A DNA stretch of 64,000 nt from Chondrosia reniformis (Eukaryota > Porifera > Demospongiae > Chondrillida > Chondrillidae): NCBI GenBank assembly GCA_947172415.1, contig OX359189.1, positions 8,880,501 through 8,944,500 on the forward strand, given 5' to 3'. The notes beneath the pieces are model-generated. The model searched no databases, had not been told where the DNA came from, and was given only the letters and a program-made list of their open reading frames with translations. Each line of letters opens with the position of its first letter. Position 1 is the first letter of the stretch. This document shows, piece after piece, positions 2,936 through 63,000 of this stretch. Both the position numbers and the translations under genes were made by a program.

Positions 2936-4870
2936 AGTCTTTCTTGTTACTCAATTGGACATGTTGCTAGGTAACTGACATTTGATTCCCATGACCATTC
3001 TTCTGCAAATATAGCAAATAAAGTCTAAACTGCACAATAAGCCATATACGTGTGTAATCAAATGTTGGCTGCATAAATTGTACCTACAGTGACAAATTAC
3101 ATTTTGAGCAGTCTCACAAGTTAGTATTATTACATGAGGTAAAGATGCTGATTAATATGCTAATCATGTAACTTAAGAGAAAGACAAACAGAAGCTATAA
3201 TTTGTCTTATTCTCTAAACAAGATAACCTACCAATCAGTGAAGTTTAGGGCATGTACAACGCCAAAGTTCCCCAAATAAGTTATGTAGCAACGGCCATTT
3301 TGGATTCACAAATTGATTGAGCAATAGCACAAGGATTTAGCTACGTAATGTAAAGATATGCACTTTCTTCATTACCTTTTTTTTCAATTATAGATATCAT
3401 TAATTAATGTGATTCTGTTTAACAAATACATCTGATTCTCAATGTCCTGTGTTGTGCATGAAACATGCCGCATGACAATGTATGCGCTCGCAATGAGTCG
3501 CATGAGCTTGTATATGTTCAAAATTAATGATTTCTGCTGAACAATGGAGGTTTATTGAAATATTAATTGTTTGTGTACGCACTTCCATTCATGGGGTCTC
3601 TGCAATTGTTATAAGATTCAATTATAGCTTCGCTGATAGCCATGCATGCATGTTTTTGAGTTTGAACTCAATAGAAATAACAACTGGCTGAATAGGTCGG
3701 TGCATGTACTACATGTTGTCTATTGTTCTCGAACATGACATCGAAAACAATAAACAAAATTTTGCTTCCACGATTTCCGCCAAGTTTACGATGTTTCCCG
3801 CCGACAATTTTTAATAAATAGGCAAGGAAAATTTCAGTCTTTGGCCTCCGGGCTATCAACTCTGGAGGTCTACTTTGGTGTGGATCGATGCGAAAACCAT
3901 TCTTGGAGTACGAGCAATGGTACATGCCTATCCGAAGGGTCATAGGTGTTCGTATAGTGGGGTGGTCTCTCTATCATGGGTTAGTGCCTGGAGATGTATC
4001 TCACTATTAATCCTGCTTGTGTGTTAAATTGGCACTTGCGGGATTCTTGCTATACGACCCGTACCTGGAGGTTGGTGTGGTCCAGTGCCACTACGTAGTC
4101 GGTCAGGAACCCCTGTTGTAGGCTGCAGCTTCAGGTTGGTTTGGAAGGAATTGCATTTAATTTGTATTCAAAGCAGTATTTCTTTGTATTTTATATTATG
4201 TATTTTCAATTCTTTTCTTGCAGTTCAGTGAACTGATGGGTCCCTACTCTAAAGCGCCTGGCCGATCCCAATGAGCTAAAGTCTGTGTACAGTGCTCCCA
4301 AGCTGCGTTGTGTGCACATGATGATTCTCATTGGTGGGAGTTTGTGGTCCGCCAGGGTCGGGCTTGTTCTGTCCGTAGCGTGAGGCAGAGCAGGACTAGT
4401 AACTGGTCACAGGTCGGTCAGGTACGCCGGACCGTTCCCGAGCAGCTTCTCTTACGACGCAAGTAGTGGAAGTGTCAAACAGAGTTGAGAAACCGGAGGC
4501 CTTTTGGGGCACAAAGTACTTCTACCTCCACGTGGTGTGCCCTGGGATCACTTTTACTCAGTAAAGTGATGCAAAACGAAGTACTACAGCAAACCAATCA
4601 AAGCCACTCAAAAGAAGAAGAAACACTATGAAGAACTTGTTTAAGAGCTACATTCTTTTGAACAATTTTTTTAATTTTAAACCATGTATCATGTATATTT
4701 CAAAATTGTCAAACAGAAATGATCATTGTGCAGTGGTTTTATAAATACATGCAATCGATAATGATAATGATTATGAGATTGGTATAATAAGATATATAAT
4801 ATAACCCAGCTAATCGCATACATCTATGTAAGCATTCAGTATACTCTTGTAAATTATTGCATAACAAATA
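2936..4870. other. Intergenic; includes a GC-richer block at 3.7-4.6 kb
   Basis: No gene is supported. From about 3700 to 4600 base composition rises well above the surroundings, with words such as GCGCCTGGCCGATCCC. It holds two short open runs on the plus strand: about 4240-4385 (ELKSVYSAPKLRCVHMM) and about 4395-4565 (EAFWGTKYFYLHVV), the first preceded by a good acceptor (TTTCTTGCAG, about 4224). Neither has a matching start or partner. It may be an old repeat or a gene fragment. Confidence 0.35.
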
Positions 4871-4927
4871 AAATCCAAAGGTCGGCCCATGTCCATTGCA
4901 GGACACAGACATGCATCATGAATGTTT

Positions 4928-5142
4928 TAACGAAAAAGAAAAAGGAAAAAAGAAAAAAAAGGAGAAAGGAAAAACGAAAAAGAAAAAAAGAAATAAGGAG
5001 AAAAGGAATACGAAAACGAAAAAGAAAAAAAAGAAAAAAGGAGAAAGGAAAACGAAAAATAAAAAAGGAAAAAAGGAGAAAGGAAAACGAAGGAGAAAAA
5101 AGGAAAAGGAAAAGGAAAAAGGAAAAAGGAAAGATGTACATT
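4928..5142. repeat. Polypurine (GAAAAA/GGAAAA) low-complexity tract
   Basis: About 210 bases of almost pure A and G on the plus strand, built from irregular GAAAAA, GGAAAA and GGAGAAAGG words. Open frames on both strands here encode only Lys/Arg/Glu or Phe/Ser runs and are composition artefacts. Mirror-symmetric polypurine DNA of this kind can form triplexes. Confidence 0.9.
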
Positions 5143-5229
5143 CTGTATAATGCGTATATACTTCAGAGAATAAGAAGAGAGGAGTTAGTGTACCAGTCCC
5201 TTACAAGGATTGTAACAGGACCTATACAG

Positions 5230-6057
5230 GTGAGATGAAGAGGACTCTTAAGGTGGGATAAAGAGGACTCTTAAAGTGAGACGAAGAGGACTCTTATGGT
5301 GAGATGAAGAGGACTCTTAAGGTGAGACGAAGAGGACTCTTAAGGTGAGATGAAGAGGACTCTTAAGGTGAGATGAAGAGGACTCTTAGGGTGAGATGAA
5401 GAGGACTCTTAAGGTGAGATGAAGAGGACTCTTAAGGTGAGACGAAGAGGACTCTTAGGGTGAGATGAAGAGGACTCTTAGGGTGAGATGGAGAGGACTC
5501 TTACGGTGAGATGAAGAGGACTCTTAGGGTGAGATGAAGAGGACTCTTAAGGTGTAATGAAGAGGACTCTTAAGGTGAGATGAAGAGGACTCTTAAGGTG
5601 AGATGAAGAGGACTCTTAGGGTGAGATGAAGAGGACTCTTAGGGTGAGATGAAGAGGACTCTTAAGGTGAGACGAAGAGGACTCTTAGGGTGAGATGAAG
5701 AGGACTCTTAGGGTGAGATGAAGAGGACTCTTACGGTGAGATGAAGAGGACTCTTAGGGTGAGATGAAGAGGACTCTTAAGGTGTAATGAAGAGGACTCT
5801 TAAGGTGAGATGAAGAGGACTCTTAAGGTGAGATGAAGAGGACTCTTACAGTGAGATGAAGAGGACTCTTAAGGTGAGATGAAGAGGACTCTTAAGGTGA
5901 GATGAAGAGGACTCTTAAGGTGAGATGAAGAGGACTCTTAAGGTGAGATGAAGAGGAATCTTATGGTGAGATGAAGAGGACTCTTAAGGTGAGATGAAGA
6001 GGACTCTTAAGGTGAGATGAAGAGGACCCTTAAGGTGAGATGAAGAGGACTCTTAAG
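5230..6057. repeat. 36-copy, 23-bp minisatellite
   Basis: The unit GTGAGATGAAGAGGACTC plus TTAAG repeats with a 23-bp period from 5230 to 6057, which is exactly 36 units. Single-base variants (CGAAG, GTAATG, TTAGG, TTACG) mark subtypes. The rare GTGTAATG unit occurs at 5552 and again at 5782, 230 bp or 10 units apart, within a repeated order of variants, so a block of about ten units was duplicated. Each junction reads AAG|GTGAGA, a full 5' splice-site consensus on the plus strand. Confidence 0.95.
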
Positions 6058-11472: not shown

Positions 11473-14313
11473 TTATAGGTTAGCATAAGTTTGCAAGTTC
11501 TCATTCTTATTCCTCTCAATACACACATAAGCAGGATTTTTCTCCATGTTAATGTCTACAGATCCACTGACAGTCTTTTCTTCTTGAGAAGCTAAAACAA
11601 GTTATCATAATGTAATTCAATAATGGTCTATACAGATTACATGCATGCATTCCTATTCTTATATGTTATATTTACCCTTGGAATTTGAAGAGTTCCCTAG
11701 ATCTGTTTTTCTTTTCTTCTTCACACAGAGACATCTAATGCATGTAACTGTTGAGATGCTCACACTTACTATCAACAATAAAGTTACAACACCAAAAGCT
11801 ATAATCCATTCCTTAGAATAACCTGTATGTTGAAAACTATACTCATTTACAACTTTAACTCTATCACTGCAATATTATATGAATGGATAAAGGATGTGTT
11901 ATAAATTCATCTCACATGAATGAAGTGATGATTCCTCCTTTGTGACTACAATTACATGTCTATGAGTAACTATATTCGGAGTCTCGTCACAAAAAGCTAA
12001 AATTCCAATCTCATAAGATGTACCAGGAGTAAGACCTTCAATAGTGTAGGATGTTTCAGTAGTGGTTGTATTCCTCAAACTAGATCCATCTCCACTCTGT
12101 TGCCATGTTACCTCATACATGAAGGTACAGTTCTCAAAACACTCATCACTGTGGGACCACATCAGGGAGATACTTGTATCAGAAGGGATGGATGTGAGTG
12201 AGGTTGGAGGAAGGGGAGACTCTGAAGGAATATTACCTATAAAGGAATATTAGTATACATACAGTGTGTTAGTTGATAAAATACATAAAATGTTAATAAT
12301 CTCGGCAAAAACACACTCACCTCTAACTCTCAAGGTCACAGATTCACTCTCCTCCATACTACCATCAGCATACACAACAGCACAAGAGTAGTTAGCCTCT
12401 CCATTGAAGAAGACACTCTTTCTTGTTGTCACGCTCACAACTGTCTCAGTATTACTCTGGGATACAACCATATGGTATGTATCAGGTAGATCAATCCTCT
12501 CTCCATCCTTCATCCACACTACAGGACTGGTCTGACTGAAGATGGGTCCACTTGATGTAGTATCAGTTATATCATGATGGTGACAGGTGAGTTGGACTTG
12601 TCTGTCGTAATTATAACAGACTGGGCCAGCAGTAACTGCTAGTTTGATCATAACTACATACAGTATATTATTATTTATTATAAACATATTATTACTGTGC
12701 CCAAGGCAAATCAAAAGAAATAGCCCACCACTATTAGGTTAAGGGGCTGCACTAGGCATGTATAAACCATCGCTTCTTGCAAGGCTACCAAGCCGTCCAC
12801 CCAGGTGCACAGTCTAATTAACTGACTGGGAGCAGGCCATCGCCGATGCTACCACGCCTAACTACCCACCCAACTAACAACAGAACAGTAAATTAAAAAA
12901 GGATCCAGTTCTGAGTTTAGTCTGAGGTTAAACAATTAACCAATTAGTGTATGCAATACACACACATACATGGAGAATTAATAATAAATATATTTAGATG
13001 ATTATGAACATAGTACTGAGGAAATGATGTAAATATGCAAGGGAGGAAGCCGTGGGGGAAGGTGCCAGAACATTATAACTTTCTCATTCTTTCTGCAATT
13101 TTTATCCGATTTTAGTATTACAGCAAGCTTCTCGTAATATAATAAATAAAATATACAATAAGAGATTTTTGGTTTCTAAAGTTCGAGTTAGTATATGAAT
13201 AAGCTTAAAAAGAAAGTTGATGAATAGCTAATTTAGGAAAGTCTACATTTGGAATTGAAACTTGTTTGTACAAAACCTGTCAAGGCATTTCTGTATGAAT
13301 GTAAAAAACAATAACTTCGATATACGTACATGTTAAATTTTATTTAACATGTAAAATAACTAGTACATAACTTATAACATGCTATATCTATACGTTCCTA
13401 AATTTCTGACTTACTCAATGTAGTGATGTCCATCCACAGTGGATCACTAAACACTTCAGTGTTGTTAATGGAGTGTGCACTTATACCTACTCTGTAGGTA
13501 CTATTTGATTTCAAATCTCTAATTGCTATCTCAGTAGAGTTGAAGATGTACAGTTTCTGAGGTACCAGTAGTGATTTATTGACTATCTGATACAAGTTGA
13601 CTTGGAAAACAAATACATGATGTCTATAGCACTCTTGATCTGGTTTATGTTCAACCTCTAAATGAATCTGATTTGATTTTGGCTGTTGTGAAATAACTTT
13701 TGGAAGTTGTACTTCTGCATGTTTCAAGAATTTAACAATTGAGACAAATGTATATATATATATATATATATATATACGTACATTGCGTTAAATTAATCAA
13801 GACACTAACCGACTGTATCAACCACTACTTCATTGCTGTAGTCTCTAACTGATGTATCAATAATTAGAGTGTAACATTTGAAGATCCACACTTTATTCAT
13901 AAAAGTAACACTGGTCAAGTTAATATCAACAATTTCATAAGTTCTTTCATAGCGACTATACTCATCATTCGTAGTAAATCTTGTTCTATTTCTCTCCCAA
14001 ACCACAGTTAGAGATCCAGCATTAAAAGGATGAGAACAATTTAATTGGAATACTTGACCCAGACAGAGTAATTTAGAGGGACCCTTAAGAGTGACAGCTA
14101 CAACACCTATATACGTACATTATAGGAAGCATTACGACACAGACCAAATTATGTTTTATCATATATCAAGAATTGAATGCGTGTGTCAAAAGAATGTGAA
14201 TTGCGAGTTTATCCCAATATACGGTATATATATACAAACAAAACCTTTAATTTACCTGTCAGTGAATAATATAAATACAGAATTCCACAAACAGTACTGA
14301 CTGTTCTTGACAT
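11473..14313 (-). CDS. R1: Ig-FN3-Ig-FN3 transmembrane receptor with ITAM-like tail
   Basis: Exons 14313-14256, 14097-13810, 13714-13415, 12653-12321, 12236-11916, 11822-11676 and 11591-11473 all join in phase 1 and give 521 residues. In order they encode a signal peptide, Ig1 (QLNCSHPF, VVWERN, FKCYT), FN3 (LKSNSTYRVGISA), Ig2 (QLTCHHHD, VVWMKDGE, NYSCAVVY), FN3 (LMWSHSDE, LTPGTSYEIG), a transmembrane helix (WIIAFGVVTLLLIVSVSIS) with basic stop-transfer, and a 39-residue tail. The tail ends NPAYVCI, ten residues, then YANL and the stop: two YxxI/L boxes spaced like an ITAM, the first inside NPxY. The predicted role is ligand-binding receptor coupled to tyrosine-kinase signalling; ligand unknown. 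Ig2 and the second FN3 are nearly identical at DNA level to those of R3 and R5. Confidence 0.88.
12720..13414. other. Intron of R1 with a GC-richer insertion
   Basis: This intron between the first FN3 and second Ig exons is the longest in R1. At 12725-12885 it holds a compact GC-richer stretch (AGGCTACCAAGCCGTCC, GCCATCGCCGATGCTACCACG) unlike the flanks, probably an old repeat insertion. No exon is seen. Confidence 0.4.
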
Positions 14314-17304: not shown

Positions 17305-19801
17305 TCAACTAACAGCTCTCTGTGACTTGTTTGTATCTTGTTTAATTTCTGCATAGTTTACAAGTAACAACTCATTTTTCTGGTGACGAGGTTGTTTCTT
17401 CTTAAAAGCTAAAGCAGCATACTGAACTGCATTCTGTATTGAAATAATATCATACGTATGTACTTGTATATACGTATATCTCATTAAAACAACTGTACAC
17501 ACTGTATATATATATATTAAATAATGTTTATATCAGAAAGATCCAACATTACTTCATGATCTCCTAATGTACATTCTCCAGCACTTCTTGTAGGGTCATC
17601 TGTCTCATCTGTCTCATGAGGAGTAGTCTCCCTCTCTGGTGACACATGTCCTGTTTCAGGTGACTCAGTTTTGGGTTGTGGGCTCTTGACTCCATTTTCT
17701 TTCAAGTTGTATACACCCTTTTTTGTTGAACAGAACTTTGTCTTGACAATTATACCAATGACTACTAATAACACAAGTATCAGCAATAAAGAAATGGAAA
17801 CAGACAAAGCAACTGCTAGGACACCAGATCCTGTGATAGAGATATAGTATCAGATCACAAAGTAAAGTATTATAGTTGCACAACAATATGTACTTTGTAC
17901 ATGTACATTACATGCTCTTTATTACTTTTGTACAACTGCATGTAGTCACTCCTATTGTAATCAATTTATTAACCTAACCTGGTAAATGTATTGTAATCAT
18001 TATGACTTTGAATTCACTCCTAATGTTCAAGTTTTCTTTACAATAAGCTCCAACTCCAATCTCATAAGATGTACCAGGAGTAAGACCTTCAATAGTGTAG
18101 GATGTTTCAGTAGTGGTTGTATTCCTCAAACTAGATCCATCTCCTGCACTCTGTTGCCATGTTACCTCATACATGAAGGTACAGTTCTCAAAACACTCAT
18201 CACTGTGGGACCACATCAGGGAGATACTTGTATCAGAAATGATGGATGTGAGTAAGGTTGGAAGAAGGGGAGACTCTGAAGGAATATTAGCTGTAAACAG
18301 TACAAGATATTACACAAGATAAAAGATATTATAGAAGCTAGACAAAATAGGATGATGTGTTATATGTGTACTGTACATGTAAAAGTATGTACTCACCTCT
18401 AACTCTAACAGTCACAGGTTCACTCTCCTCCATACTACCATCAGCATACACAACAGCACAAGAGTAGTTAGCCTCTCCATTGAGGAAGACACTCTTTCTT
18501 GCTGTCACACTCACAACTGTCTCAGTATTACTCTGGGATACAACCATATGGTATGTATCAGGTAGATCAATCCTCTCTCCATCCTTCTTCCACACTACAG
18601 GACTGGTCTGACTGAAGATGGGTCCACTTGATGTAGTATCAGTTATATCATGATGGTGACAGGTGAGTTGGACTTGTCTGTCATAACAGACTGGACCAGC
18701 AATTGAGAGAGAAGTGAGAGGTATTCCTGCAGTATAATAAACATGGTACTCCCGTTGAGCCCCACAATACAAGAGACATTGCTTTAGTATTCAACCAACA
18801 CATGCATACTCATAAAACAACACAACTGTATAGTAATGAAAGTGTACATGAAAGGACAGTAATAATTCACATCAAATTAAAATACTCTTCACTTTCATGT
18901 TTATACTACATATAGTGCACAAGTGACTATAATACAGTTTACAAATACTCACGCATCATCATTATAATACATGACAGTTTGCATATACTCACCAACAGTA
19001 GTGAATTCCAATGACAGTGGTTCACTAACAACATCTTCATTTCCAACACATTCAGCAGTTATGTTAACTTTATATTCCGTATCACTCATCAACCCATCTA
19101 TTACTACAGTATCACTGGAGGGGAAGGTATCATTCTGTAGTTGTGTCACATCAGGTACTCCACTGATCACAGGATACCAGACAACATGATATTGGAAAGT
19201 GTGATGAGAATAACATTCCATATTTGGAGTGTGTTCCATATTATACACAATAGTATTAGATTTAGGTTGTATTGCAGTTACATTCGGAAGAGAGACCTCT
19301 ACATGGAGTTGAAAGATATGCATCATAGAAGTGTGAATATCATTTGAAAATATTATGATATAAATGTATGTTTTACCCCATTACTGAATTTAACTCACCA
19401 ACTGCATCAATCACCACTTCATTGCTGTATTCTCTAACTGCTGTGTCAAGATTTAGAGTGTAACATCTGTAGATCCACACCTTATCATTAAAGGTATCTC
19501 TGGTCACAGGAATATTAGCAATTATATAGGTTTGTTCAAGTTTTCCCTGAATAACAGTTCTTGTTCTGTTTCTCTCCCAAACCACAGTTAGAGATCCATC
19601 ATTAAAAGGATGAGAACAATTTAATTGGATTACTTGACTCAGACAAGGTGCTTTATGAGGACCTTGAAGATGGACAGCTACAGCAACTATTTAATTAAGA
19701 GAATGAATTGGACACAGATCACAAATATTATTTTAAAAATGTTTACCTGAATTATAATAAAAGGACAGAATTACACATATGCCAACTGTCCCTAGCGACA
19801 T
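17305..19801 (-). CDS. R3: Ig-FN3-Ig-FN3 receptor with two alternative tails, one ITIM-like
   Basis: Exons 19801-19747, 19677-19399, 19298-18993, 18726-18397, 18290-17979 and 17830-17517 join in phase 1 (531 residues): signal peptide, Ig1, FN3, Ig2, FN3, then transmembrane helix (ISLLLILVLLVVIGIIV) and an acidic Ser/Thr/Glu-rich tail in one exon. A further 3' exon at 17426-17305 has acceptor GAATGCAG, an open frame in the matching phase and a stop. It can join to an internal donor, AAG G|GTGTAT after base 17717, giving 505 residues. That alternative tail contains VQYAAL and, 22 residues later, VNYAEI, both fitting the ITIM consensus (V/I/L)xYxx(L/I/V). The main model is firm; use of the alternative exon is inferred from splice sites and phase. 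Confidence 0.85.
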
Positions 19802-20254: not shown

Positions 20255-21571
20255 GATCCTGCCCCTGATCCTGGAACTAGAGAATCTATCTAAACAAATA
20301 TGGTTTGCTAATGATGCTGCTGCTGCTGAAAGACTGCAAGCAATGAAGCACATGGGACAGGATTGTTGAAAGAGGACCAAAATATGACTACTTTGTGAAT
20401 CCATTAAAAACCTGGATGGTGGTCAAGGAAAGTCATCTGGAGTTCGCCAGGACTACTTTCAGTGACAGTGGAGTTCATATCACAATTGATGGAAGGACAT
20501 ATCTGGGATCCTTTATTGGATCAGATGATATGAAAGATTCATTTGTGCAAACCAAAGTCAAGAGCTGGATAGCAGAGCTTGAGAAACTTACCTCGTTTGC
20601 CAACACTCAACCTCATGCTGCATTCTGTGCCTTCACTCATGGAATTGTGAACAAGTGGAGGTACCTGCTCAGGACTACTGGACAGATCGAAGATAGCATA
20701 CAACCTTTGGAAGATGCTATCAGACACAAGTTTATCCCTGCAGTAACAGGACGCTCGGGATTTAGCGAGAATGAACGACAGGTAGTCTCACTTCCAGCAA
20801 GGATAGGGGGCCTCAACATTTGTATACCAAAAGAATTGGCCAAGGATGAGTATGTGAACTCACACACTGCAACGGAACCCTAGTCCGTGCTGTCTCTGAG
20901 CAGAGGAGAGTGAAAATGGATGGCATCTGCCCAATATGCCGAAAATATGTGTGTGTGGTAAGAATCTGACAGTTGAGCATGCCTCACCTGCCCCACTGGA
21001 GGAATGCCAACGTTGCAACACAATAAAATAAGAGACCTTACCGCGGATCTCATGACTGAAGTATGTCACAATGTGTGCACAGAGCCTGAACTGCAACCCC
21101 CGTTAGGGGAAGTGTTGCATGGACGATCGGCCAACTGTCAAGATTCTGGAGGGATTCTGGGAGAGATCCCGGGATGCATTTTATGACGTGAGGGTGTTTA
21201 ACCCATTCGCAACTCAGAACTGCTCCCAAAGCCTCTCTGCCACATACCAATGCCATGAAAGAGAAAAACGAAGAAGCTATGAGCAACGCATCCGTGAAAT
21301 TGAACATGGTTCCTTCACTCCACATGTTTTTGCAGCTACAGGTGGAATGGGAAAGGCAGCTCACATGACATACAAGAGATGGGTGTCATTGCTGGCAACG
21401 AAGCGTGATCAGCTGTACAGTCAAATGATGAACACTATTAGAAGCATGATCAACTTCTCATTACTAAAATCACAAATCAGATGTATCAGAGGATCCAGAT
21501 CATCAACTGGTCATGCTATCAAGACCCCAATCAATGTGATCGCCAGTGAGGGGCGTGTCCCCTCTATCTAA
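20255..21571 (+). mobile_element. Dead non-LTR-type retrotransposon, RT end plus C-terminal domain
   Basis: Conceptual translation in several frames matches the C-terminal half of an invertebrate reverse-transcriptase polyprotein. It has a palm block where the usual YADD reads FANDA (about 20306-20320), then a thumb-like region (GPKYDYFVNPLKTWMVVKES, LPARIGGLNI) at 20370-20882. After stops and a frame change comes a second domain, 21119-21571 (ILEGFWERSRDAFYDVRVFN, CIRGSRSSTG), of the kind that carries a restriction-like endonuclease in such elements. The catalytic Asp pair is altered and frames are broken, so it cannot be active. The 5' part is missing. Confidence 0.75.
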
Positions 21572-21731: not shown

Positions 21732-22320
21732 GGCCGCATTGTTGGGCTTAATATATATATTCTTAATCCTAACGATTGAGGACGCTTAAGTGTCCTGAAC
21801 ATTATAAATAGCGACAGAAAAGCTTCGTTAACTAAAGCTTCCTGAACGCCGCCATTTGCAAAACGATGTATTGACGTATAAATTAAGAGTTGCGTATCAA
21901 CCCGTATTATATATATATATCTTTCTGTAACATGAAGCCTAAAAATTTGAAACTAACGTCCTGCGTATTTGCGGTTTTTACCGGAAACTTCGTTGTTCGG
22001 TTGGCGGGAACGTTTGAATTCCTCAGCGAGTATATTATTATTTTTTATTATTATTTTACTCAGGAATGTCCCTTCAGCTCACAGCTGGTCTATCAGGGAG
22101 TCCTGTAATTATAAACATCATGCAAACATCATACATATAATTGTAAATCAGTTAGTAATCAGTCAGTAATCAGTTTGGGCAGGTGTTGATGGTAGGGGGT
22201 GCCACTTTTTCTTTCTTTTTCTTTACTGCCCTGGAGGTGAGCCCTGACCATCCCATTGCTTTGTAATCTGTAATCTTCAAACATAGCTTCCAGGCCACCA
22301 GCACCCCCAACTGCACGGTA
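21732..22320. other. Intergenic
   Basis: No exon is supported. Shares a few words with the flank of the second foldback copy at 43.3-43.6 kb, so both may belong to one longer repeat. Confidence 0.35.
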
Positions 22321-22329
22321 ATTTGATTA

Positions 22330-22845
22330 TCACCTCTGGGACATGCCTAAATGATCAGCTAGATGCTGCATTGAAGGAGGTAGCAAGGTTGAAGGGGAAG
22401 GCATCCATAAATGCCATATCAAAGAAATATGGCATTCCAGTGTCCACACTACATGATCACGTAAGGGGTAAAGTTAAGAAGGTAGGGGCAGGAAAACCAA
22501 CAGTGCTGACCTACGTATGCAGAAGAGGAAGAAATAGTGTATTGCTGCCAGGTCTTGCAGGAAATAGAGTTTGGACTGACAAAAGAAATTGTATCCTCCA
22601 TCGTTATCGACTACCTGCACGCACAAGAGAGATCATCCTTTCGCCAGTGGCCGACCCGGATGGGACTGGTGGAGTGGGTTTCTGAAGAGGTGGCCAAATC
22701 TTGTTTCCAGGAAAGCGCAGCACCTCTCCACCAAAAGATCCAGTTCAGTCAACCCCACTACCATCTCTGGCTTCTTCCAGAACATCAAGAGCTTGTACAA
22801 GAAGCTGAAACTCACCAGCTCGTCGGCGATGCGCAGGCGGTAGCC
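22330..22845 (+). mobile_element. pogo/Tigger-like transposase N-terminal relic
   Basis: Three frames together give a pogo-type DNA-binding region. First is a Pipsqueak-type helix-turn-helix (ALKEVARLKGKASINAISKK followed by YGIPVSTLHDHV). Then GAGKPTVLT, a frame change near 22515, and a CENP-B-type region (EEEEIVYCCQVLQEIEFGLT). After a second frame change near 22635 come PFASGRPGWDWWSGFLKRWP and FFQNIKSLY. The catalytic DDE part is absent. The order and motifs are those of Tigger/pogo transposases; two frameshifts make it a fossil. Confidence 0.75.
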
Positions 22846-24518
22846 ATTTTATACCTTCCTAAAAATGGCGTCAGAAACGCCTCTAATTTCGCAAGACGCG
22901 GTATTGGGTATACATATACAGTAATTTTGCCTTAGATAGTATTCGAAATTGAAACAAAATTTAAGAATGGTAAGAGTAAATGGTCTACAACTCCTATGGC
23001 GCTCCCTCTACTGTACACACATCTGTGTATCAATCTATTATTACCTCTCACCAAATTCATATAATTTGGCCATTCTTTATAAGCCATTGGCACAATAAAA
23101 AGATGTTAGACCAATGACGAAGCAGCCGTCATTTGTTACATGCAAGCAAATATAGTCAACATAAGTGAATCACCCTTGCAGATGTGCAAGAGAACACTAC
23201 CAATGTTTCATGTAATATAGTATGCAATTGCTCACATAACTTCTGCATTAATTTGGCGCGCATTTATTCCAATCCCAATGTGAAACGCGAATTCACCGCA
23301 TTTCGAAAACAACTTTTTTTGAAAGGACCGAGAAAACAACTTTTTTGAAAGGACCGAGGAAACGACTTTGCAATCGAATTCTTCAAATCAAATCAAGAGG
23401 TCGCCCTAGGCCTATCAAATGGGGGTCATTACAAAAGGAAAGGTCTCAAGGTGATGAATAGAAACTAAATGATTGTAATGAGTAAAGAATTCAGGGCAGA
23501 AGTAGCTGCTTATAAGACTAAGCCTAAATGCTACATATAGAGAGTGGTTAAACAGAATTCGTATATTCATGTACCTTTTAAGAATATTGTAACAAACAAT
23601 AGAGAGAGACTGCTATATATTAATACACCTACGTATATAGACTGTACATAGCTATGTACCTGAAAGGATGGCCTGCATGGTAACCTTGCAAATAATGATG
23701 GCTTACACATGGCACAGGGCTATATACAATATACGTACCTTGCAAATTTGCAATTGGATCCTCAAGGATTCTACAGAAGAATAAGCTGTATATATCTTGG
23801 TAGGTCCAATGTAAGTCTTGACTTATTTTATAATTGGTTATATAGATATATATACATACATATATCATGTAGCAGACACATGCATATCATGTAACCTGTA
23901 AAACAGACAGCCCTATATTTATAGGTCAGATAAATATCCTAACTGATGTAATGCTTGGGACCAGATGTTGCAATTGGTAACTCATGACATGATAAACTAA
24001 CCTCTTGAAAGGTTAGAAAAACCTTCCCAAAATAAAAAATGACATCACAATGTATGCAGGGATTACATGTCTGCACTGTTGTCTTAATAGATACGTATGC
24101 ATTATACCATACAATAGGCCTACATCAATTTGCAAAAGGCATTCATACAGTTAGGGAGACTTCAAGCCAATAGCAATGTCATTGACCTAGGTATGAGGTT
24201 ATTCATGACTCTTAAGTATATATAGGTACACCCACAATTAGGTAGACCTGAAGGAGCCAAGTATTGTGTGTGAAAACCCCAGAATCCATATACACACACA
24301 CACACACACACGTATATACTTGGGATTTCCCTTTAATAAACAATTGCAATCAGCTAATGGGTAAAGGAAAATTACAGAATATTCAATAAGGACCCTTATA
24401 CTGATACACATTTGACAAATATGAAACAAATCTATATATAATACTATGTAGTTTTGCAATTGAATAGTATACTAGTAGTACTTACGTATATATTAGGTAC
24501 ATTCATTACATACATACA
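22846..24518. other. Intergenic; short repeats
   Basis: No exon is supported. A direct duplication of CTTTTTTGAAAGGACCGA lies at about 23310-23360, a (CA)n microsatellite at 24293-24312, and the segment from about 24190 is a copy of the 3' flank of R1. Confidence 0.5.
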
Positions 24519-24640
24519 TGGATTACAGGCTAGCATAAGTTTGTTCTTTTTCTTCTCAATACACACATAAGCAGGATTTCTCTCCATTTTGATATTTACA
24601 GATCCACTGACAGTCCTGTGTTCTGAAGAAACTGTTATAT
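24519..24640 (-). pseudogene. Orphan copy of the R1 cytoplasmic-tail exon
   Basis: Reading the minus strand gives TVSGSVNIKMERNPAYVCIE, nearly the R1 tail (TVSGSVDINMEKNPAYVCIE). A deletion of about ten bases afterwards shifts the frame, so the second YANL box and the stop are lost. The flank up to 24190 is also copied from R1. No receptor exons lie nearby. It is a relic of a duplicated receptor 3' end. Confidence 0.75.
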
Positions 24641-26000
24641 TGGATATATCCATGCAATATAACTTGTATACTAAGAGATCAATGGAAGCATTCATACATT
24701 TTGGATATCTTTTGCTTTTTATGTGGTGGTATAAGTATCATTGTTGTAGAATTCGAAGTTCAAAATGTACTTGAGGGTTGCAGAGGTTTAGAAGGTGTAA
24801 AACTTGCAGTGGGAGTGATCACAAGAATTCTTAGTTGCATTAGTGACTCTACCTTGCTGGAGATAATGTTGAACTAGATGGATAATCATTATGGTAGGAT
24901 TTTGTTGTCTGAAAGAGAAAAAGGAGGATCAATCATCAGGGGATCCTTGGTATTATCTTGTATTGCACAACGCTTTCTGTTTTCCTTACTTTTTTATTTA
25001 ATTGCTTGCGCGTGCATTGCTACAAATAACATGTGCACTACTTTAGAGCTCGCTTGGCATTCCAAGTCATTTCTACAGTATTGGTGGTAATGCATACTAT
25101 TTTCAATTTATTATTAAACATATAATTTTTATTTATTTTATTTCATTATTATTAAAGGTACAGCCCCATCAGCACAATACTGGTATGACTAGGGGACCTT
25201 ATATACAAAGAAATAAATGAGTAAATATATTTCTAACATTTTAAATAAATATAAAAATTCAGAATAGGAATTAATTTAACTAAAAAAGAATTCCATTCCT
25301 GTCCAGCTTTGTAGAAGTAGGACTTAGCTAGCCAATTAGACTTTGGAGTTGGCAAGTAAATGTCACTTGCTCTCCTAGTAGATCGCAAACCTAATTAATA
25401 TAATACGAGAGAGACATTAGAGGAACAATTAGTGTATGCTGAAAGCCATTTCAACAACATGTTACATATTTATCACATGTGTGGCTAGTTATATGTAGGT
25501 AATTTTATGAACAAGAAGACTTTTGTGATAGAACATTAATTACATTGCCATATACAGTACACCATATAAAAGCCAATTGGATGTAGCAAATGTAGAAGCA
25601 ATATTAATACCATTAATATTGCTTTACATTTTGAATAACTGTAGATGGTTACCGTGGCTACAGTAGACAAACAGATCATATTAACGTTAAAAAACGTTGA
25701 CACATTAAACAAGGCCTCGCGATTGGATTCTACAGCTACAAATCCTTATATTGCGAGACATTCATTTTCCTCAGCTGCGCAGCCATCTGAACTGGATAAT
25801 TAACATATGCAAATTTAGTAGTATACGAGCTACGTAAGTGTAAAAAGAATCACGTGTTTACTTGCAAGGCGAGTGACTTCGATCTTATTCAAGAGGTCCA
25901 TTTCGAAATTTAAATCCGGAGGAGAAGGTGCTGTCTGAACACTTGGGTGGATTCTAATTGATTAATCTGCTGACTTATATGACTTTGTTAACTTATTTAG
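24641..26000. other. Intergenic, upstream of the nuclease-like gene
   Basis: No exon is supported. AT-rich apart from 25690-25930, where CpG words and a candidate promoter for the gene starting at 26001 occur. The base before the ATG is preceded by TTATTTAG, so a 5' untranslated exon is possible. Confidence 0.4.
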
Positions 26001-30503: not shown

Positions 30504-33500
30504 TTATTGCGTTTCTGGAACAGGATTTGTAGGCACATCATCCTATTGAACAGAATAATTAGTAAATAATAAGCAGATTATAAGAACACACATTATGATA
30601 AACTAACCACAACTTTTTCAGGACTGCGGCCACAAACCCTTTCATCCTTATTTTGAGAATTTGATTGACACTCTAACGAAATAGGATCATTACTGTGTCC
30701 TGGGCCTTCATTTGGCTTCAGAGGATTACCACTGGAATGAAGGGTACTTGATTTACCATCAGCTGAAGGTTTAGCTATTTCTATAGCCTCAGGCTGGGGG
30801 CTAACTGCTGTGGTACAGTAATTTGCATTGCTTCTGCCTGAAGTCTCCTCATAAGGCGTCTGTACTTGACCTTGATCTTGCATCATGGATCTCTGTACAT
30901 CAGGTTTCAGGTAATCAGGAAGACATTTATCACTGGCAATCAGTTTTGAATCTGGAGAACTTGATTGAGTTTCTTTGGAGCCATATGGGGCTTTCGTAAC
31001 TGGATTAGATAGTGTATCTGCGTCTTTGTTTACTTCGATGGCTGGATTAGATAGTGTATCTGCGTCTTTGTTTACTTCGATGGCTGGATTAGATAGTGAA
31101 TCTGCGTCTTTGTTTACTTCGATGGCTGGATTAGATAGTGAATCTGCATCTTTGTTTACTTCGATGGCTGGATTAGATAGTGAATCTGCGTCTTTGTTTA
31201 CTTCGATGGCTGGATTAGATAGTGAATCTGCGTCTTTGTTTACTTCGATGGCTGGATTAGATAGTGTTCCTGCGTCTTTGTTTACTTCGATGGCTGGATT
31301 AGATAGTGAATCTGCATCTTTGTTTACTTCGATGGCTGGATTAGATAGTGAATCTGCGTCTTTGTTTACTTCGATGGCTGGATTAGATAGTGAATCTGCA
31401 TCTTTGTTTACTTCGATGGCTGGATTAGATAGTGAATCTGCGTCTTTGTTTACTTCGATGGCTGGATTAGATAGTGAATCTGCGTCTTTGTTTACTTCGA
31501 TGGCTGGATTAGATAGTGAATCTGCGTCTTTGTTTACTTCGATGGCTGGATTAGATAGTGAATCTGCGTCTTTGTTTACTTCGATGGCTGGATTAGATAG
31601 TGAATCTGCATCTTTGTTTACTTCGATGGCTGGATTAGATAGTGAATCTGCGTCTTTGTTTACTTCGATGGCTGGATTAGATAGTGAATCTGCGTCTTTG
31701 TTTACTTCGATGGCTGGATTAGATAGTGAATCTGCGTCTTTGTTTACTTCGATGGCTGGATTAGATAGTGAATCTGCGTCTTTGTTTACTTCGATGGCTG
31801 GATTAGATAGTGAATCTGCGTCTTTGTTTACTTTGATGGCTGGATTAGATAGTGAATCTGCATCTTTGTTTACTTCGATGGCTGGATTAGATAGTGTATC
31901 TGCATCTTTGTTTACTTCGATGGCTGGATTAGATAGTGAATCTGCGTCTTTGTTTACTTCGATGGCTGGATTAGATAGTGTATCTGCATCTTTATTTACT
32001 TCGATGGCTGGATCTTTGCTAACTTGGGCGGCTGGATTAGATAGTGTATCAACTGTAACACCTCCACAGTGAGAAGGTTTCATTTTTCTTCTATGCTTCT
32101 TAATTAGCATACCAATTAAGAGGATGAAAAGGCAAATCACAAAAAGTATTGCACCTACAACAATACCACCAATATAGCCTGTACAATAAAAGACAAAGTA
32201 TTGAATTTTATGTACACAAGCTCACATCAATAATTCATACCATTCTCCCCAACTGACTGACTGTTATCATCACCAAGTGCTAAATCTGCAGCCATACAGG
32301 TTTCTGAATCTTTGAGTTCTATAAAATATGAAGCATATAAAGTAATAAACATAAACAATTTACACAATAAATAACACAAGAATTACGTAATACTAACTTT
32401 ATGTAATTTTATCACTATACATACTGAAATACTACATTATTGCTACATTATTAAAAGGTTGTATGATCTAATACTGTGTATATTACACACAGTAATTTTG
32501 AAATCTATAAAACAGACATAATATATTAATAGAGTAGAGGTTCATTGCCATGCAAAGTACTAACCATTATTGTATAAATATTTAGTCTTGGTTGCATTCC
32601 AATTTACAGGATACATGCAATAGGCGATGACTACAATCAGATAGTTTAAATAAGTTTGGTTCCAAATAAAATAGCTGTTGCTTGATTCTTCAGAGAGATA
32701 AGTTTCTTCACTAGCTGTGCCATTGGCCAAACATGTCTTGAGATTGATGTGAAATGATAAGTTTTTACAGCATCTTTCGGGGTCCAAAGTCATGGATAAA
32801 TTGCACTTTGATAGATTGCAGTGGTTTGTAAAGTTTAAGTAAAACACTGTACACACAAGAGAAGTTCAATAATTATTAGGTAATAACATACTTGACAAAT
32901 GGTCATTGATATAACATGGTGATGTATAGTAATTGATAATTATTGTATTACAGAAGGTCAAATTTCATTTTTATAGATAGCATAGAGGTAAAAGGAATTA
33001 AACAAAACAGATTGCATTAGACAGCAAATTTTGAGGATGAGATACGTAAACAATTTTCTTTTCTAGGAGAGACAAAATTTTTGGGGAAATAAATTCTAAT
33101 ACTGATAGATGGCTCCAATTATTTATGGATCTATTTTTCTTTGATCAGAACTACGTGTACTATACTCAACTGGTAAAATAAAATGGTGACATATATGTGT
33201 AGATTTTATATCGTACATCATGCTCTCCGCATGTCAATAAGGTTGGTGATTCAAAAATTCAACTGATGGTTGAAATTTAACATACGTATAGAAAATGCTC
33301 TAAATATTACATAATATTGTTAGTAACACCACCACAATCAACCACCAAAAACATGAAAATATAAACAGCATATCTCAATTGATCAAATGTAAGTACATGC
33401 AGCCGTGAAGAGAGGGAAAGGTAGGTAGCCGTGAAGAGAGGGAAAGGTAGGTAGCCGTGAAGAGAGGGAAAGGTAGGTAGCCATTAAGAGAGGGAATGGA

Positions 33501-36272
33501 AGGCAGCAGTGAAGAGAGGGAAAGGTAGGTAGCCGTGAAGAGAGGGAAAGGTAGGTAGCCATTAAGAGAGGGAATGGAAGGCAGCAGTGAAGAGAGGGAA
33601 AGGTAGGTAGCCGTGAAGAGAGGGAAAGGTAGGTAGCCATTAAGAGAGGGAATGGAAGGCAGCAGTGAAGAGAGGGAAAGGTAGGTAGCCGTGAAGAGAG
33701 GGAATGGAAGGCAGCAGTGAAGAGAGGGAAAGGTAGGTAGCCGTGAAGAGAGGGAAAGGTAGGTAGCCGTGAAGAGAGGGAAAGGTAGGTAGCCATTAAG
33801 AGAGGGAAAGGTAGGTAGCCATTAAGAGAGGGAAAGGTAGGTAGCCGTGAAGAGAGGGAAAGGTAGGTAGCCATTAAGAGAGGGAAAGGTAGGTAGCCAT
33901 TAAGAGAGGGAAAGGTAGGTAGCTGTGAAGAGAGGGAAAGGTAGGTAGCCGTGAAGAGAGGGAATGGAAGGCAGCAGTGAAGAGAGGGAAAGGTAGGTAG
34001 CCGTGAAGAGAGGGAAAGGTAGGTAGCCATTAAGAGAGGGAAAGGAAGGCAGCTGTGAAGAGAGGGAAAGGAAGGCAGCTGTGAAGAGAGGGAAAGGAAG
34101 GCAGCCGTGAAGCCTGTAAACACAGTTTTTCCTTTCCCTCTCTTCATGACTGTGTTTACAGGCCATGTATCATGCAGTTTTAAACACGTGTGTGCTGTAA
34201 TCCATACAAGTTTCCTTTGTAGAATACAGTGTTACATGGGGCAGGTAAAATATATAGCCCTATATATAGCCAGGGTCAGATGTGTTGCATTCTGGTTTAA
34301 AGTGTTGTCAAGTCCATTGTATGAAGGGATGATTCTGAGGGTAGCTGTATTGGAAGCAATGGAGTGTGGAGGGTCATGGATTATGAAACTGTGGAAGTGT
34401 CTCAAGTCCTTTGGGTGGTGTGGTATTGGAGCTGAGGAGGTACGTGGTCTATCTAGTGGAGAAATCAGGGCAATGTTAGAGACTTGTGCGAGGAGGATGA
34501 TTGAAGAGGAATGGTCAGGTGAGCTTAGCACCAAACCAAAGTTGGCAATTTTGCGGCTTCTTAAGGAGAATGGTGGTGAATCACGGTGCTTGGACGTGGC
34601 CAGCAAGAGTCACAGATGAGTGATGATGATGTTGAGAGGTGGGACAGCCCCCCTCCTGATTGAGAGTGGATGGTGGCGGGGGCTTCAGAGAGAGGAGAGG
34701 ACATGTCAGAAGTGTCAGGCAGGGAAGGTGGAGGATGTTACCCATTGGCTACTTGAGTGTAATGCGTGGTGCACCAAACGCCAGCCTCTCTTACAGGCAA
34801 TGAGGCACATAACCAACGATTTTGACAATCTGTACGAGGATGAGAAGTTAGTTCTAGTTCTAGACAAGGGATGCCAGCATTTATCAGTTCAGCAACAACA
34901 AAAAAGGAGGCAATTGCTTTGTTACTAAAACTGAACAGTCCGCATCTTCATAATACTCTTCAGTATTGAATCGGCTCAGCAAAGGCTGGGTCAATAGGAG
35001 GCTTCAATACTCATGCTGCTAACATAGTCACAGCTGTATACATTGCTACGGAACTTCTTGGAATGTAAGGGGTATACGTGTTGGCTGAGCACCCCTTGGT
35101 AGTGTGAGCCCCACTAATTAACTATCTGTCTGACTCCTCCCCCTAGACTTTTGGGAACCCCCTAAACTGCTTCAACATCCTTATACCATTGTCCCCCTAA
35201 ATTTTGAAAAATTTTATTCTGCCCCCTCTGGCCCCAAGTTTTGCATACAGCCCTGATATAATTAGTAATAATAACCATCACTCACTGGACAAAGGGTCTC
35301 ATACTTATATCTGGGATCCTATATGTATTGCTACGTTTTATGTGGAAGAGGCAGTCAAGGATGCAGGCTCAGTGGCTGCCCTTGCTGAAACCAGGAAAAA
35401 AAAGAAATTTGAAGAACCCTCAACCCTGTATGAATTTACCTCAGTGTCAATTGCGACGACTGATGTACGTACTTGGGCAAGAAGCCATGAATTTTCTTCA
35501 TTAACTGTCTTCCCAAGTCAGAGCCATCACAAGGGAAGACATGGCCCATTGTCATCTTATCCAGCAGCTAGCTGTTACCGCCCAGAAGGGCAATGTAATT
35601 GTCCATTATGTCAAAAATGAACTACGCAGCTTAATATTTCCATTTATGGTAATTAAAATAAAAATAATAAAAATATCACTCACCAGGTGGATCTACAGTA
35701 ACTCCATTGCTGATGACTCTATTTGGATCAGATGTACCACGAGTGACATCAAATGTGAAACATCTGTAAGTGTATACTTTATTCTCAAACTCTTCTCTGG
35801 TCACAGTGATAGTCAGAGTAGTAGTAGTTGGAGTATTACCACCTTCATCATCATGATTAGGAGTAGACTGAGGATTAAATCTAGTTCCATTTCTCTCCCA
35901 CTCAAGACGAATATCTCCATCAAGTACAGGATGTGTACATGTTAACTTGTAGGTTTGACCAAAACAAGGAGAACTACTCTCCTGTCCAGTCAGGTTGACC
36001 ATGGTGGCGCCTAAGGACCAAAGTTTAATGTGAGATAAAGGATTATAATAAACAATTATCTTTTGAAAGGATCGTCTGAAGTCTAAAGAAGACCCTCAGG
36101 GTCGAAACGTCTGACAGTCAAGAAGAAACAACAAAACTGCGTCTTTAGAGGCTCTAAAAATTGAAGCCTAAGGCACTATAAATTAAGCCACAAGCTTACA
36201 TCCTGTTTCTGACAAGTAAAGCGTAAGAGCAATTGCCACTGAAGCGAAAAACTTTGACCCAGTAGTAGCCAT
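30504..36272 (-). CDS. R4: Ig receptor with long 14-residue-repeat cytoplasmic tail
   Basis: Exons 36272-36200 (signal peptide after YY1-like AAGATGGC), 36010-35684 (Ig: [21 protein letters not shown]), 32846-32565 (a Cys-rich, Asn-glycosylated module, ASEETY near its middle), 32318-32241, 32178-30608 and 30542-30504 close in frame at 789 residues. The large exon starts with a transmembrane helix ([19 protein letters not shown]) and a basic KKHRRK stop-transfer. The cytoplasmic part is dominated by about 24 copies of [14 protein letters not shown], then a Ser/Pro-rich end. The 2.8-kb intron 35683-32847 carries a LINE relic and a minisatellite. The join across that intron rests on phase only. 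Confidence 0.75.
31000..32010 (-). repeat. Coding 42-bp tandem array in the R4 tail
   Basis: About 24 near-identical 42-bp units encode (D/S/T)[13 protein letters not shown] on the minus strand. Variation is mainly S/T at one position, a single K for E near 31830, and GCA/GCG synonymous changes. Because the unit is a multiple of three, the opposite strand is also open for 365 codons ([14 protein letters not shown]), which is a by-product. Confidence 0.95.
33400..34108. repeat. 26-bp minisatellite in the R4 intron
   Basis: About 27 units of GGTAGGTAGCCGTGAAGAGA plus GGGAAA, with subtypes CCATTAAG and GGAAGGCAGCAGTG, which recur in blocks. The array ends in a hairpin: GCCTGTAAACACAG at 34114 pairs with CTGTGTTTACAGGC at about 34151, and the loop holds an inverted unit. 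The long minus-strand open frame through it (26-residue period) is an artefact of three 26-bp units per frame cycle. Confidence 0.95.
34190..34930 (+). mobile_element. LINE ORF2 C-terminal relic
   Basis: The translation [17 protein letters not shown], then LKSFGW, EEEW, then [20 protein letters not shown] followed by [20 protein letters not shown] matches the tail of invertebrate non-LTR ORF2 proteins, including the terminal CxxC...HxxxxC zinc motif. An in-frame TGA at 34617-34619 interrupts it, and the RT part is missing. It lies in an R4 intron, antisense to that gene. Confidence 0.75.
35240..35620 (+). mobile_element. Second retrotransposon coding fragment
   Basis: An open segment includes [13 protein letters not shown] and [20 protein letters not shown], then [11 protein letters not shown]. 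The pattern of a small A-rich helix, a K-rich stretch and an F-P-x-hydrophobic strand is seen in the C-terminal domains of non-LTR polyproteins. The assignment is less firm than for 34190-34930. It ends against the R4 Ig exon at 35684. Confidence 0.45.
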
Positions 36273-60035: not shown

Positions 60036-63000
60036 TTATAGCATTCTAATTAATATAAGATGTGTGAGCGCTCTGAAGAGATCAGGAGGCTTTCTTTCAG
60101 GTCTCCCAGGAGGTTTAGCTTTACTGGGCATGATCAGAAGTGACTCCATTTTATTGACACTTGACCAGAGGTGTAGTACCATTAGTTCTGTGTACAAAGA
60201 GGTACACAGAGCTACTTGATCCTGTTCTGTTGTTAGGCTGCCAGGAGGTTGTCCATTTGGATCCACTTCAAAGAGTCCAAACCACCATCCCAGATTCTTT
60301 AAAGCCTGCTTAGATGATGAGAAAAGAAAACACATAGTATATTAAACTAATAATGCAGAAGTTCTAATCATCCATAAAAATATAAAAGGGTTCCTATATA
60401 TGTGTTAACTGACCTTGCACATTGAGTTTGTAGAGTAAGAATTCACTGCTGTGCAAACCTTGGAAATGACATCACTCACTATACAAATGTATGTTATGTA
60501 TAAGTTTCTAAATGATACGTATCTATTTGTCCAATTATTATCAATATCTTTTCAAAATATAATACTTTTAGTTATATTGGGTTACTGCATGATGAAGGGT
60601 GATATTCCCAGACACAGCTACGTACATATCTGCCCAGTGGAAAGGGAAACTCTTGTATATATCCTCATCTGAAGTTCTCGCTAGGTCTAGTTTAGTTTAG
60701 TATAGGCTTTTTACATAGTATGTAGGAGAGTGGTGCTTTAATTTACCCCTACATATTAATCATCTGATTAAAACACATCTTCTAATGTCGTTTGTACGCA
60801 GTTTGAATGTACAACATTACCTGAAATATGAACTGAAGCAATCGGTCCCAGGGAATTATATGAGCCTAGATTTTGTAGACAAAGAAAGATACATGTAGGT
60901 ACCAGTTGGTATATACTGAGTACTTTTGTATATGTACAGTAAGGTGTACTAGGTAGTACTAGTACTGTAGCTCTAGTTGCATTCATGGATCTGGTTACCA
61001 GGAGCTATCAGCAACATGAAATTGTTAGCTGTTCATGGCAATGAGGAGAATTAAGTTTTGCCATTTAATTAGGAAAAGGGTTTTGAGACGACAAATATAA
61101 TTCCACTTCATTGTTCATGTATAAATTGAGTTGGATGTGCACTAGTGCTTCTTGCACTAGACATACGTACCATCAAACCTCATTTTCATCTTCAAATTCA
61201 CACTGCTACTGAAGATACCCTTCATAAAAAGCAATATTTGGACACGTTTAACTTGATATAATCTTAACAAATATTCAGAGTAGTAAAAGTAACTCTTGTA
61301 CTTACAAGAGCTAAATAAGCTACCTTCAACACAGTTTCCTTTGTTGGTGTTAAAATGGTGATTGCTTGATCATCTAGTTCAGTGTCATCTTCAGGGATAA
61401 CATCATCTTCCATATCAACCTTCCCTTCGCTTTCATCATCATCTAATTGGTCAACTAGACGTTCAGCAGTGTTGTTCTCCTGAGACACCAGATATACAGT
61501 ACATATATACATACATACACAATACATGTATTGCACTACCAGTGCAATACATGCACAAGCACACTTATGATAGAGTATCAGCAGAGCTACATAGTTTAAT
61601 AAATGGAGATGCAGCATACAGCTAGTTTAATAGAGCATGATCAGATGCAGATTACATACATGTTAAAGTAAGTAAGTTAGCATAATATACTGTATATACA
61701 GGTACCCACCTCCCTGACACCGTTGTATGTAAGTTGAAAGTTTGGTAATAGAGGTGTACTACCTAGTACTACTGCACTTTTGTCATCACCATGGAAACCA
61801 GACTCCTCCACAGGAAAAGGCGGCTGATTTATGATGATGATGCATATATTCAAAATAATTGCAACACTATGTTAATGATTAATTAATCACTCAATCACTT
61901 AATCTCACTTCATTTCCACCATTCATCTTCACAGGACTCACACTGTAGCTGCCAACAAACTAGGAGAATGCAAAAATATATAAAATTATATACTGATGCA
62001 GTTACAAAGGTGGAACAGCTGTGTTATATATGCTAATTAATACCTACCTCATCTTTGATTATCACTTCACTATGAGACTGTAAGGTATTGAAATAATTAC
62101 AAGAACATGACAATCAAATGAATGCACTGCATACATACGTATAAAACTACACATTGGTCAAATTATATAATACATGATGACAGAGCATGTACTCTACTAT
62201 GTACATTCATCTCAAAACATGGAAATTACTCAATAGTACAATCAGTGGGGTACACTGATAAATTACATTTCTCAATACTCATTCAAAAAAGGGCTAACTT
62301 ACTCCATTTCTGTTTTGAGCAGTGCATTGATTCAATGAGTTCTAAAAGTTAAAATGAAACAAAAGGAATTAGTCTGTATTGTCAATGGTAACCTTTGGAG
62401 ACAAACCTGAAAGCTTGAGTTTTGTGCCAATTTCACCATCTGTTTATGAAGAAATTCATTAGTAACAATACTCCCACTCGCACACTTATATAGTATTCAC
62501 AAATCACAACTCTTACAGCAGTTTTTTCTTCATTGTAGCTTGCTTCTTTCTTTGCAGAGATGCAAGGTTTTTCAGTAGCCTTGAGATTTAGTTGGCGCTT
62601 CATCTAACATACAAGAGATACAAAGACCAGTGGTTAACCATCATCCATCTTAGACACAAGTCAAAAAGAAGTAACAAATATACACAACATGTGACATCAT
62701 TGCCTACTTGTGCTTCGGTCAAATAGTTCTGAAAGTAGAATATTGGGATGGTCCTACCAGGTACCAGTTGATCTTTTGGACTGCTGGTTTCTTCAGTACA
62801 AGATTGTGACTATATGAAGTTACAGAAACAAGCTGTTATATACGTATATATAATAACAGCTACAATCATTTGACTCATAATCATAATCATTCAGAGCTCA
62901 GACTGAACGTGTGCCTCAGTCAAATAGTTCTGAGACTAGAAGGTCAAACCAGGTACCAGTTGACCTTTTGTATAGTTAGTGGCTATTGTATTTACAGAAC

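Follow-up and report, generated by a model that had tools for sequence, protein, structure and literature searches.

The window, which is the whole stretch of 64,000 nucleotides that was analyzed and corresponds to C1:8880501-8944500, carries the R3 gene, a predicted type I Ig/FN3 receptor gene on the reverse strand (19801-17305), whose exons were read from the sequence in frame. Exon 1 (19747..19801) contains the start codon and a segment that by eye resembles a signal peptide, MSLGTVGICVILSFYYNS, and ends in a phase-1 donor. Exon 2 (19399..19686) encodes Ig-like domain 1; its AlphaFold2 model has a pLDDT of 82, and the best structural matches in Foldseek/VIA are LILRB2, KIR2DS2 and LAIR1, the structural matches resting on this domain because the fold model of Ig-like domain 2 was too poor. 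Exon 3 (18993..19298) encodes an FN3-like domain in the gene model, exon 4 (18397..18726) Ig-like domain 2 (Pfam ig, E 0.004, below the curated cut-off), and exon 5 (17979..18290) an FN3 domain (Pfam fn3, E 7.9e-15), the better of two stretches of the R3 protein that match Pfam fn3. Exon 6 (17553..17830) encodes the transmembrane helix and an acidic juxtamembrane segment ending in ...CTLGDHE, with a proposed end at 17553 in phase 0. The proposed intron of 119 bases (17434..17552), drawn from the sequence only, reads GAA/GTAATG ... TTTCAATACAG/AAT, the slashes marking the splice sites. Exon 7 (17305..17433), found as an open reading frame and by alignment of homologous cassettes, consists of the tail cassette NAVQYAALAFKKKQPRHQKNELLLVNYAEIKQDTNKSQRAVS and the stop. 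All exons lie on the reverse strand. The ectodomain has the Ig fold of the immunoglobulin superfamily, and a hydrophobic stretch between FN3 and tail (Kyte-Doolittle 3.4), together with the signal-like N-terminus seen by eye, gives a type I single-pass topology with the tail motifs in the cytoplasm. R3 is thus predicted to encode a single-pass receptor of the order Ig-FN3-Ig-FN3-TM.

An acceptor, an open frame and a stop had been proposed for 17426-17305, and all three were found: an AG lies just before 17426, and the frame, coding VQYAALAFKKKQPRHQKNELLLVNYAEIKQDTNKSQRAVS, is closed by the TGA at 17307-17305. The two tyrosine motifs read as claimed from that segment are VQYAAL (17410..17427, reverse strand) and, 22 residues further on, VNYAEI (17344..17361, reverse strand), both located by pattern match on the last open exon of R3. 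They are strict ITIMs, (S/I/V/L)xYxx(L/I/V), paired on the cytoplasmic side, and both agree with the SHP2 N-SH2 and C-SH2 consensus given in excerpts of PMC10231330. Of 100,000 shuffles of the 42-residue tail, 0.042% had two strict ITIMs at a distance of 15-35 residues. Such a strict pair is present in 10 of the 593 ORFs of at least 40 aa in the window, that of R3 among the 10. Single ITIM matches are frequent by chance (158 of the 593 ORFs) and were therefore left out as evidence. By itself the pair is weak evidence, and the weight lies with the homologous tail exons; it is because of this family that the motif pair of R3 is taken as real.

Homologous tail cassettes were collected by searching the sponge's own genome with the tail exons of paralogs. 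Y5, N20 and Y27 are invariant in all 16 aligned cassettes, which are 18 to 38% identical to R3; part of this invariance may be ascertainment, because the members were found by similarity. The alignment omits two copies on C10 with lost tyrosines, out of the 8 matches of one search, as well as the near-copies C4:2693538, 2560452 and 2578361, which keep both tyrosines and came from a second search with 18 places, 12 of them read. Cassettes L081 and L084 were counted apart from the 16-row alignment. The form YxxPhi is present at the first tyrosine in 16/16 and at the second in 14/16 aligned cassettes, the strict ITIM only in 9 and 5. The cassettes were divided by eye into R3-type and V-type. The R3-type set that was read consists of R3, C1:8816915, 8830083, 7726529, 7712012, 8946440, 8688029, 8970740 and 8505331, with C1:8706737 outside the set; strict ITIMs stand at both tyrosines in seven of these nine, 7712012 and 8688029 being without the second. 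In the V-type cassettes, 9 of the 16 in the alignment, the ITIM residue at -2 is mostly missing, with strict matches in 2/9 at the first and 0/9 at the second tyrosine, and for this reason the ancestral role of the cassette may not be ITIM signalling. Their second tyrosine has the form D-x-x-Y-x-x-I/V in 8 of the 9 aligned, which is hemITAM-like. The V-type genes L015, L035, L058, L059 and L031 have two consecutive cassette exons, so that a tail can have as many as four YxxPhi tyrosines. The two C10 copies left out of the alignment, at C10:5178425 and C10:5193336 (L051, L052), are decayed tandem-ITIM cassettes with identical translated tails, both tyrosines having been lost.

The cassettes of L011 and L050 (C1:8816915/8830083) differ with a pS of 0.293, a pN of 0.011 and a dN/dS of 0.031, and the exon is 93.5% identical, whereas ungapped comparison of 100 bases on either flank gives 35% on the upstream and 72% on the downstream side. 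These values point clearly to purifying selection on the pair. The dN/dS of the V-first cassette is 0.213. A variant of the R3 tail on a 533-base contig (P0012) has two residue changes, both between the motifs, which are kept. A search via shared 5-residue words gave 11 matches, none of them a cassette relative beyond apparently the same species.

R3 belongs to a large receptor family. Its FN3 exon (exon 5) recurs at 79-92% identity in at least 63 other places, most of them within C1 8.36-9.46 Mb and the rest in other parts of C1 and on C3, C4, C5 and C10. Among the 24 other copies listed of the Ig2 exon (exon 4; 30 places including R3), 23 are 85-98% identical to R3 and one is 34.5% identical; for the Ig1 exon (exon 2), the 7 other copies read have identities to R3 of 35 to 84%. 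The same FN3 exon adjoins different tails, namely tandem ITIM in L011, ITAM-like in L008 and V-type in L015 and L031. The FN3 exon of L008 is 87% identical to that of R3, and the ITAM-like tail follows about 450 bases downstream.

In the window, a neighbouring family member has a last tail exon (11476..11592, reverse strand, by sequence match) reading ...MEKNPAYVCIERNKNENLQTYANL and a stop, with an ITAM-like arrangement (Y-x-x-I-x10-Y-x-x-L). This ITAM-like or N-type tail, ME[KR]NPAYVPIEMNQIEDKPTYVNL followed by a stop, had 69 matches with an E value no higher than 1, and the counts for it rest on the 27 copies read. The loose form of the ITAM is Yxx(L/I)-x6-12-Yxx(L/I), and the strict form has an acidic residue at -3 and a spacer of 6-8. 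The loose pattern is present in 22 of the 27 tails, one of which also has an overlapping pair; among the other five, four are without the second motif and one stops before the last L. NPAY was found in all 27. The N-type tails do not have the strict form, having N at -3 (NPAY) and a spacer of 10. The dN/dS of the ITAM-like tails is 0.35 over 19 distinct copies. A decayed ITAM-like tail (MERNPAYVCIEKKKNKLMLACNP...) that has lost its second tyrosine motif lies upstream of R3 (24444-24737, reverse strand). At 16263-15490 (reverse strand) there is a short member with a signal-like exon, an Ig1 exon (16135-15854) and an FN3-like exon that stays open until the stop codon at 15490. Between this exon and the start of the next gene near 14300 no TM was seen, and this member may be a truncated copy or else a secreted decoy with two domains. 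In C1 9.30-9.46 Mb, ITAM-like tails on opposite strands come within a few hundred bases of one another, e.g., 9349787 (+) and 9350313 (-), as if the genes were arranged tail to tail.

Seven candidate R3-type TM exons were scored in the assembly itself, which contains at least one, and another contig, of 1,026,913 bases, has six (P0014-P0019). The same contig codes P0011, which is identical to the L067 cassette over its last stretch. Alternate-haplotype contigs have been deposited as GCA_947172445.1, according to excerpts of PMC12181767. We infer that the contig with the six exons belongs to this alternate haplotype, and the haplotypes likely differ in the gene content of the receptor family.

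Candidate SH2 readers are encoded in the same genome. Two SHP-like genes in tandem (C3:9105001-9117500; L075, L076) have SH2, SH2 and PTP exons, with Pfam SH2 or PTP in nine of the ten pieces scanned; the pair is a local duplication. Two N-SH2 pieces of the first gene have PTPN11 as best match (E 5.5e-33 and 3.8e-33). WPD was flagged in both genes, and by eye both have a piece of the SAGIGRTG type and the first alone has an HC piece, so that the arrangement is that of an SHP, two SH2 domains followed by a PTP with catalytic motifs. With these genes and the fit to the SHP2 consensus, the prediction that a sponge Ig-type receptor carries tandem ITIM-like motifs on a cytoplasmic exon is upheld. 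A Syk-like gene (C6:6835001-6842500; L077) contains SH2 sequence in two pieces, together with kinase pieces that show HRD and DFG; the first SH2 piece has SYK as best match (E 6.5e-22), and the short kinase piece matches several tyrosine kinases, with an EGFR entry on top. A Grb2-like gene (C4:8851801-8859000; L078) and a PLC-gamma-like gene (C12:958501-966500; L079) were named by eye only.

The manner in which the R3 tail is joined was assessed from the family. In the original prediction the segment was an alternative tail exon, joined in phase 1 to an internal donor of the transmembrane exon, AGG/GTGTAT after 17717 (17716..17717, reverse strand). A second AG stands 7 bases upstream of that acceptor, before 17433, in phase 0 with the GT after 17553 (GAA/GTAATG). 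The two junctions, 17553^17433 (model B, 565 aa) and 17717^17426 (model C, 508 aa), give the same ITIM tail, model B having 57 residues more. The sequence of R3 permits several acceptors, and because of these other AGs the choice was left to the family. In 20 homologous cassette exons, some of them near-copies of one another, a script listed all AGs from the last in-frame stop up to the first tyrosine: in 19 of the 20 the earliest of these AGs is in phase 0, and phase 0 is the only phase possible in 9, a nearer AG in another phase existing in L054, L055 and L084. The exception, L067, is shifted in frame relative to its near-copy L068. The R3 acceptor that matches the family phase is 17433 (tttcaatacag/AAT), and phase-0 donor candidates of the same form are found at the same place in L050 (AAG/GTAATT) and L055 (AAG/GTAATA). 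We infer the junction of 17553 to 17433 itself. R3 would then have one tail only, with the tandem-ITIM cassette as its regular last exon, and the plain acidic tail would result from reading the juxtamembrane part of the ITIM tail on into the intron, ending in VMLDLSDINII and a stop.

In the proposed switch the ITIM tail is made via 17717 to 17426 and the plain acidic tail arises when this intron is unspliced, the output being inhibitory or neutral. The junction is in frame, and the claim that the donor after 17717 has the matching phase stands; it has little value as evidence, because 10 of the 14 GTs within 17756-17548 keep the ITIM frame with one of the two acceptors. A splice-site matrix gave the 17553 and 17717 candidates similar scores (0.14 vs 0.29, not separated), and in this small and biased matrix the proposed GAA/GTAATG donor and its acceptor, like the sites first proposed, score below every family splice site. 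The matrix was built on 53 donors, with 38 of 54 candidates from one exon type, and also scored the accepted acceptor 17830 poorly; being biased and unable to separate 17553 from 17717, it was dropped as evidence. The N-type L018 has a GGT after AAA (AAA GGT AAA) close to the corresponding position of its TM exon, and a precedent exists in some Botryllus FcoR genes, oligomorphic loci that exchange one motif for another by splicing according to excerpts of PMC12065747. Against the switch, a phase-1 start is at odds with the 19 of 20 homologous exons, the AG at 17434 would be bypassed, and the most conserved segment of the tail would be skipped: in six relatives of the R3-type TM exon, which lie on another contig, the best-conserved stretch runs to GDHE, partly inside the segment that the 17717 donor leaves out. 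The alternative exon is therefore not retained, and a choice by splicing between an inhibitory and a plain acidic tail seems distinctly unlikely; the single tail from 17553 to 17433 would suffice, the acidic tail looks like a retained intron, and a switch appears unnecessary to account for the locus.

The same six relatives bear on a further reading, in which R3 is damaged in this haplotype, an ancestral downstream donor having been lost, so that read-through ends at VMLDLSDINII and the ITIM exon is stranded. Their similarity persists for about 10 residues past GDHE, with V-T-L-E/D-x-S-D/S-V after GDHE or GNHE/GDYE, and the position of the R3 isoleucine (GAT ATA AAC) is taken in all six by a valine, whose codon brings a GT. 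The true exon end of the relatives may lie at that valine, and splicing of the ITIM exon may be weakened or lost in this haplotype, where the remaining donor is weak. However, L050 and L055 have donor candidates resembling GAA/GTAATG at the corresponding position, the reading frame of the tail is intact, P0012 retains both motifs, and the donor of the relatives is a guess known from protein letters alone. Damage to R3 is judged unlikely, though it is a live rival because the relatives may use a donor that R3 lacks. A functional alternative would deny the tail inhibitory signalling, the paired YxxPhi being sorting or endocytosis signals or binding SH2 domains other than those of SHP. YxxPhi is an AP-2-type sorting/endocytosis signal, NPxY is the PTB-binding consensus and Y-x-N the Grb2-binding consensus. 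The excess of YxxPhi over strict ITIMs among the aligned cassettes fits this alternative, as do the NPxY of all 27 ITAM-like tails, which mostly end in Y-x-N-L and are compatible with PTB and Grb2 binding, and the presence in the genome of a gene that by eye encodes a Grb2-like SH2 domain. The R3-type cassettes, however, keep the +1 and -2 residues, more than YxxPhi requires, and their constant spacing fits a tandem SH2 reader; a purely non-inhibitory role is held to be improbable.

R3 is thus probably an Ig-FN3-Ig-FN3-TM receptor whose tandem-ITIM last exon is spliced from 17553 to 17433, within a paired-receptor-like family. Its neighbours would combine near-identical membrane-proximal ectodomain exons with an ITAM-like tail instead, and the family would act as paired activating and inhibitory receptors, like KIR, LILR, Hydractinia Alr and Botryllus FcoR. 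The best reading would make R3 an inhibitory-type member of a sponge paired-receptor family. More tentatively, and with somewhat less than even confidence, the loci may form a demosponge paired-receptor complex in which dozens of Ig-FN3 receptors have their membrane-proximal domains homogenised, differ in the outer Ig domain and exchange tail exons of the tandem-ITIM, ITAM-like and hemITAM-like kinds, with genes for SHP and Syk present to read the tails and a gene content that varies by haplotype.

To our knowledge, the ectodomains of KIR and LILR are without FN3 domains. The Ig fold is shared by R3 and the vertebrate LILR/KIR/Siglec paired receptors, but a common fold does not in itself demonstrate descent. 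The R3 motifs fit the consensus of ITIM pairs that recruit SHP-2 (PTPN11), and with two SHP-like genes in the sponge this phosphatase is the proposed reader, on sequence grounds. Excerpts of PMC12065747 describe the FcoR of the fuhc locus of Botryllus schlosseri as a multigene cluster of type I Ig receptors with ITIM, hemITAM or YxxPhi tails and a gene content that varies by haplotype. The FcoR ectodomain has V-Ig, sushi and two C2-Ig domains before the TM, and differs from the Ig-FN3-Ig-FN3 array of R3, for which no sushi domain was listed by Pfam at E up to 1 (HMMER filters lose most matches above about 0.1). The likeness to FcoR lies in the kinds of tail and the proposed mode of action, the R3 family being a candidate only in self/non-self recognition. 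Hydractinia Alr is a clustered Ig-superfamily family of 41 members with V-set and I-set domains in excerpts of PMC11999971, and its tails carry ITIM/ITAM-type motifs in those of PMC12065747. This cnidarian family has V-set/I-set domains, in contrast to the Ig-FN3 repeats of R3 with their two Pfam FN3 stretches. Because of the different domain order, R3 was filed in neither the FcoR nor the Alr family.

In the excerpted text of the Botryllus review (PMC12065747), ITIM/ITAM signalling is shared, from cnidarians to mammals, by allorecognition receptors that are not related to one another, and no conservation is seen among the proteins put forward as allorecognition candidates in sponges, cnidarians and ascidians. 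An older review, also in excerpt, reports Ig-type receptor kinases and adhesion molecules induced by sponge grafting (PMC2248247). In the literature searched, most subscription journals being outside its coverage, ITIMs were not found to have been reported for a sponge Ig receptor. A sponge tandem-ITIM family with ITAM-like sister tails and SHP and Syk genes would extend the shared signalling logic to sponges. If true, ITIM/ITAM logic would be carried to the base of the animals as part of a candidate self/non-self recognition system, and sponge graft rejection would gain concrete, testable candidate genes in addition to those receptor kinases and adhesion molecules. The logic is known; the host phylum would be new as far as the literature searched shows, and the ectodomain appears to be new.

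Between the receptor genes of the window lie two ORFs on the forward strand (20347-20883 and 22287-22935), which by eye have retrotransposon- and transposase-like parts. The GC skew is strong at 4001-6000 (+0.34), 32001-34000 (+0.30) and 62001-64000 (-0.30), unlike most of the window.
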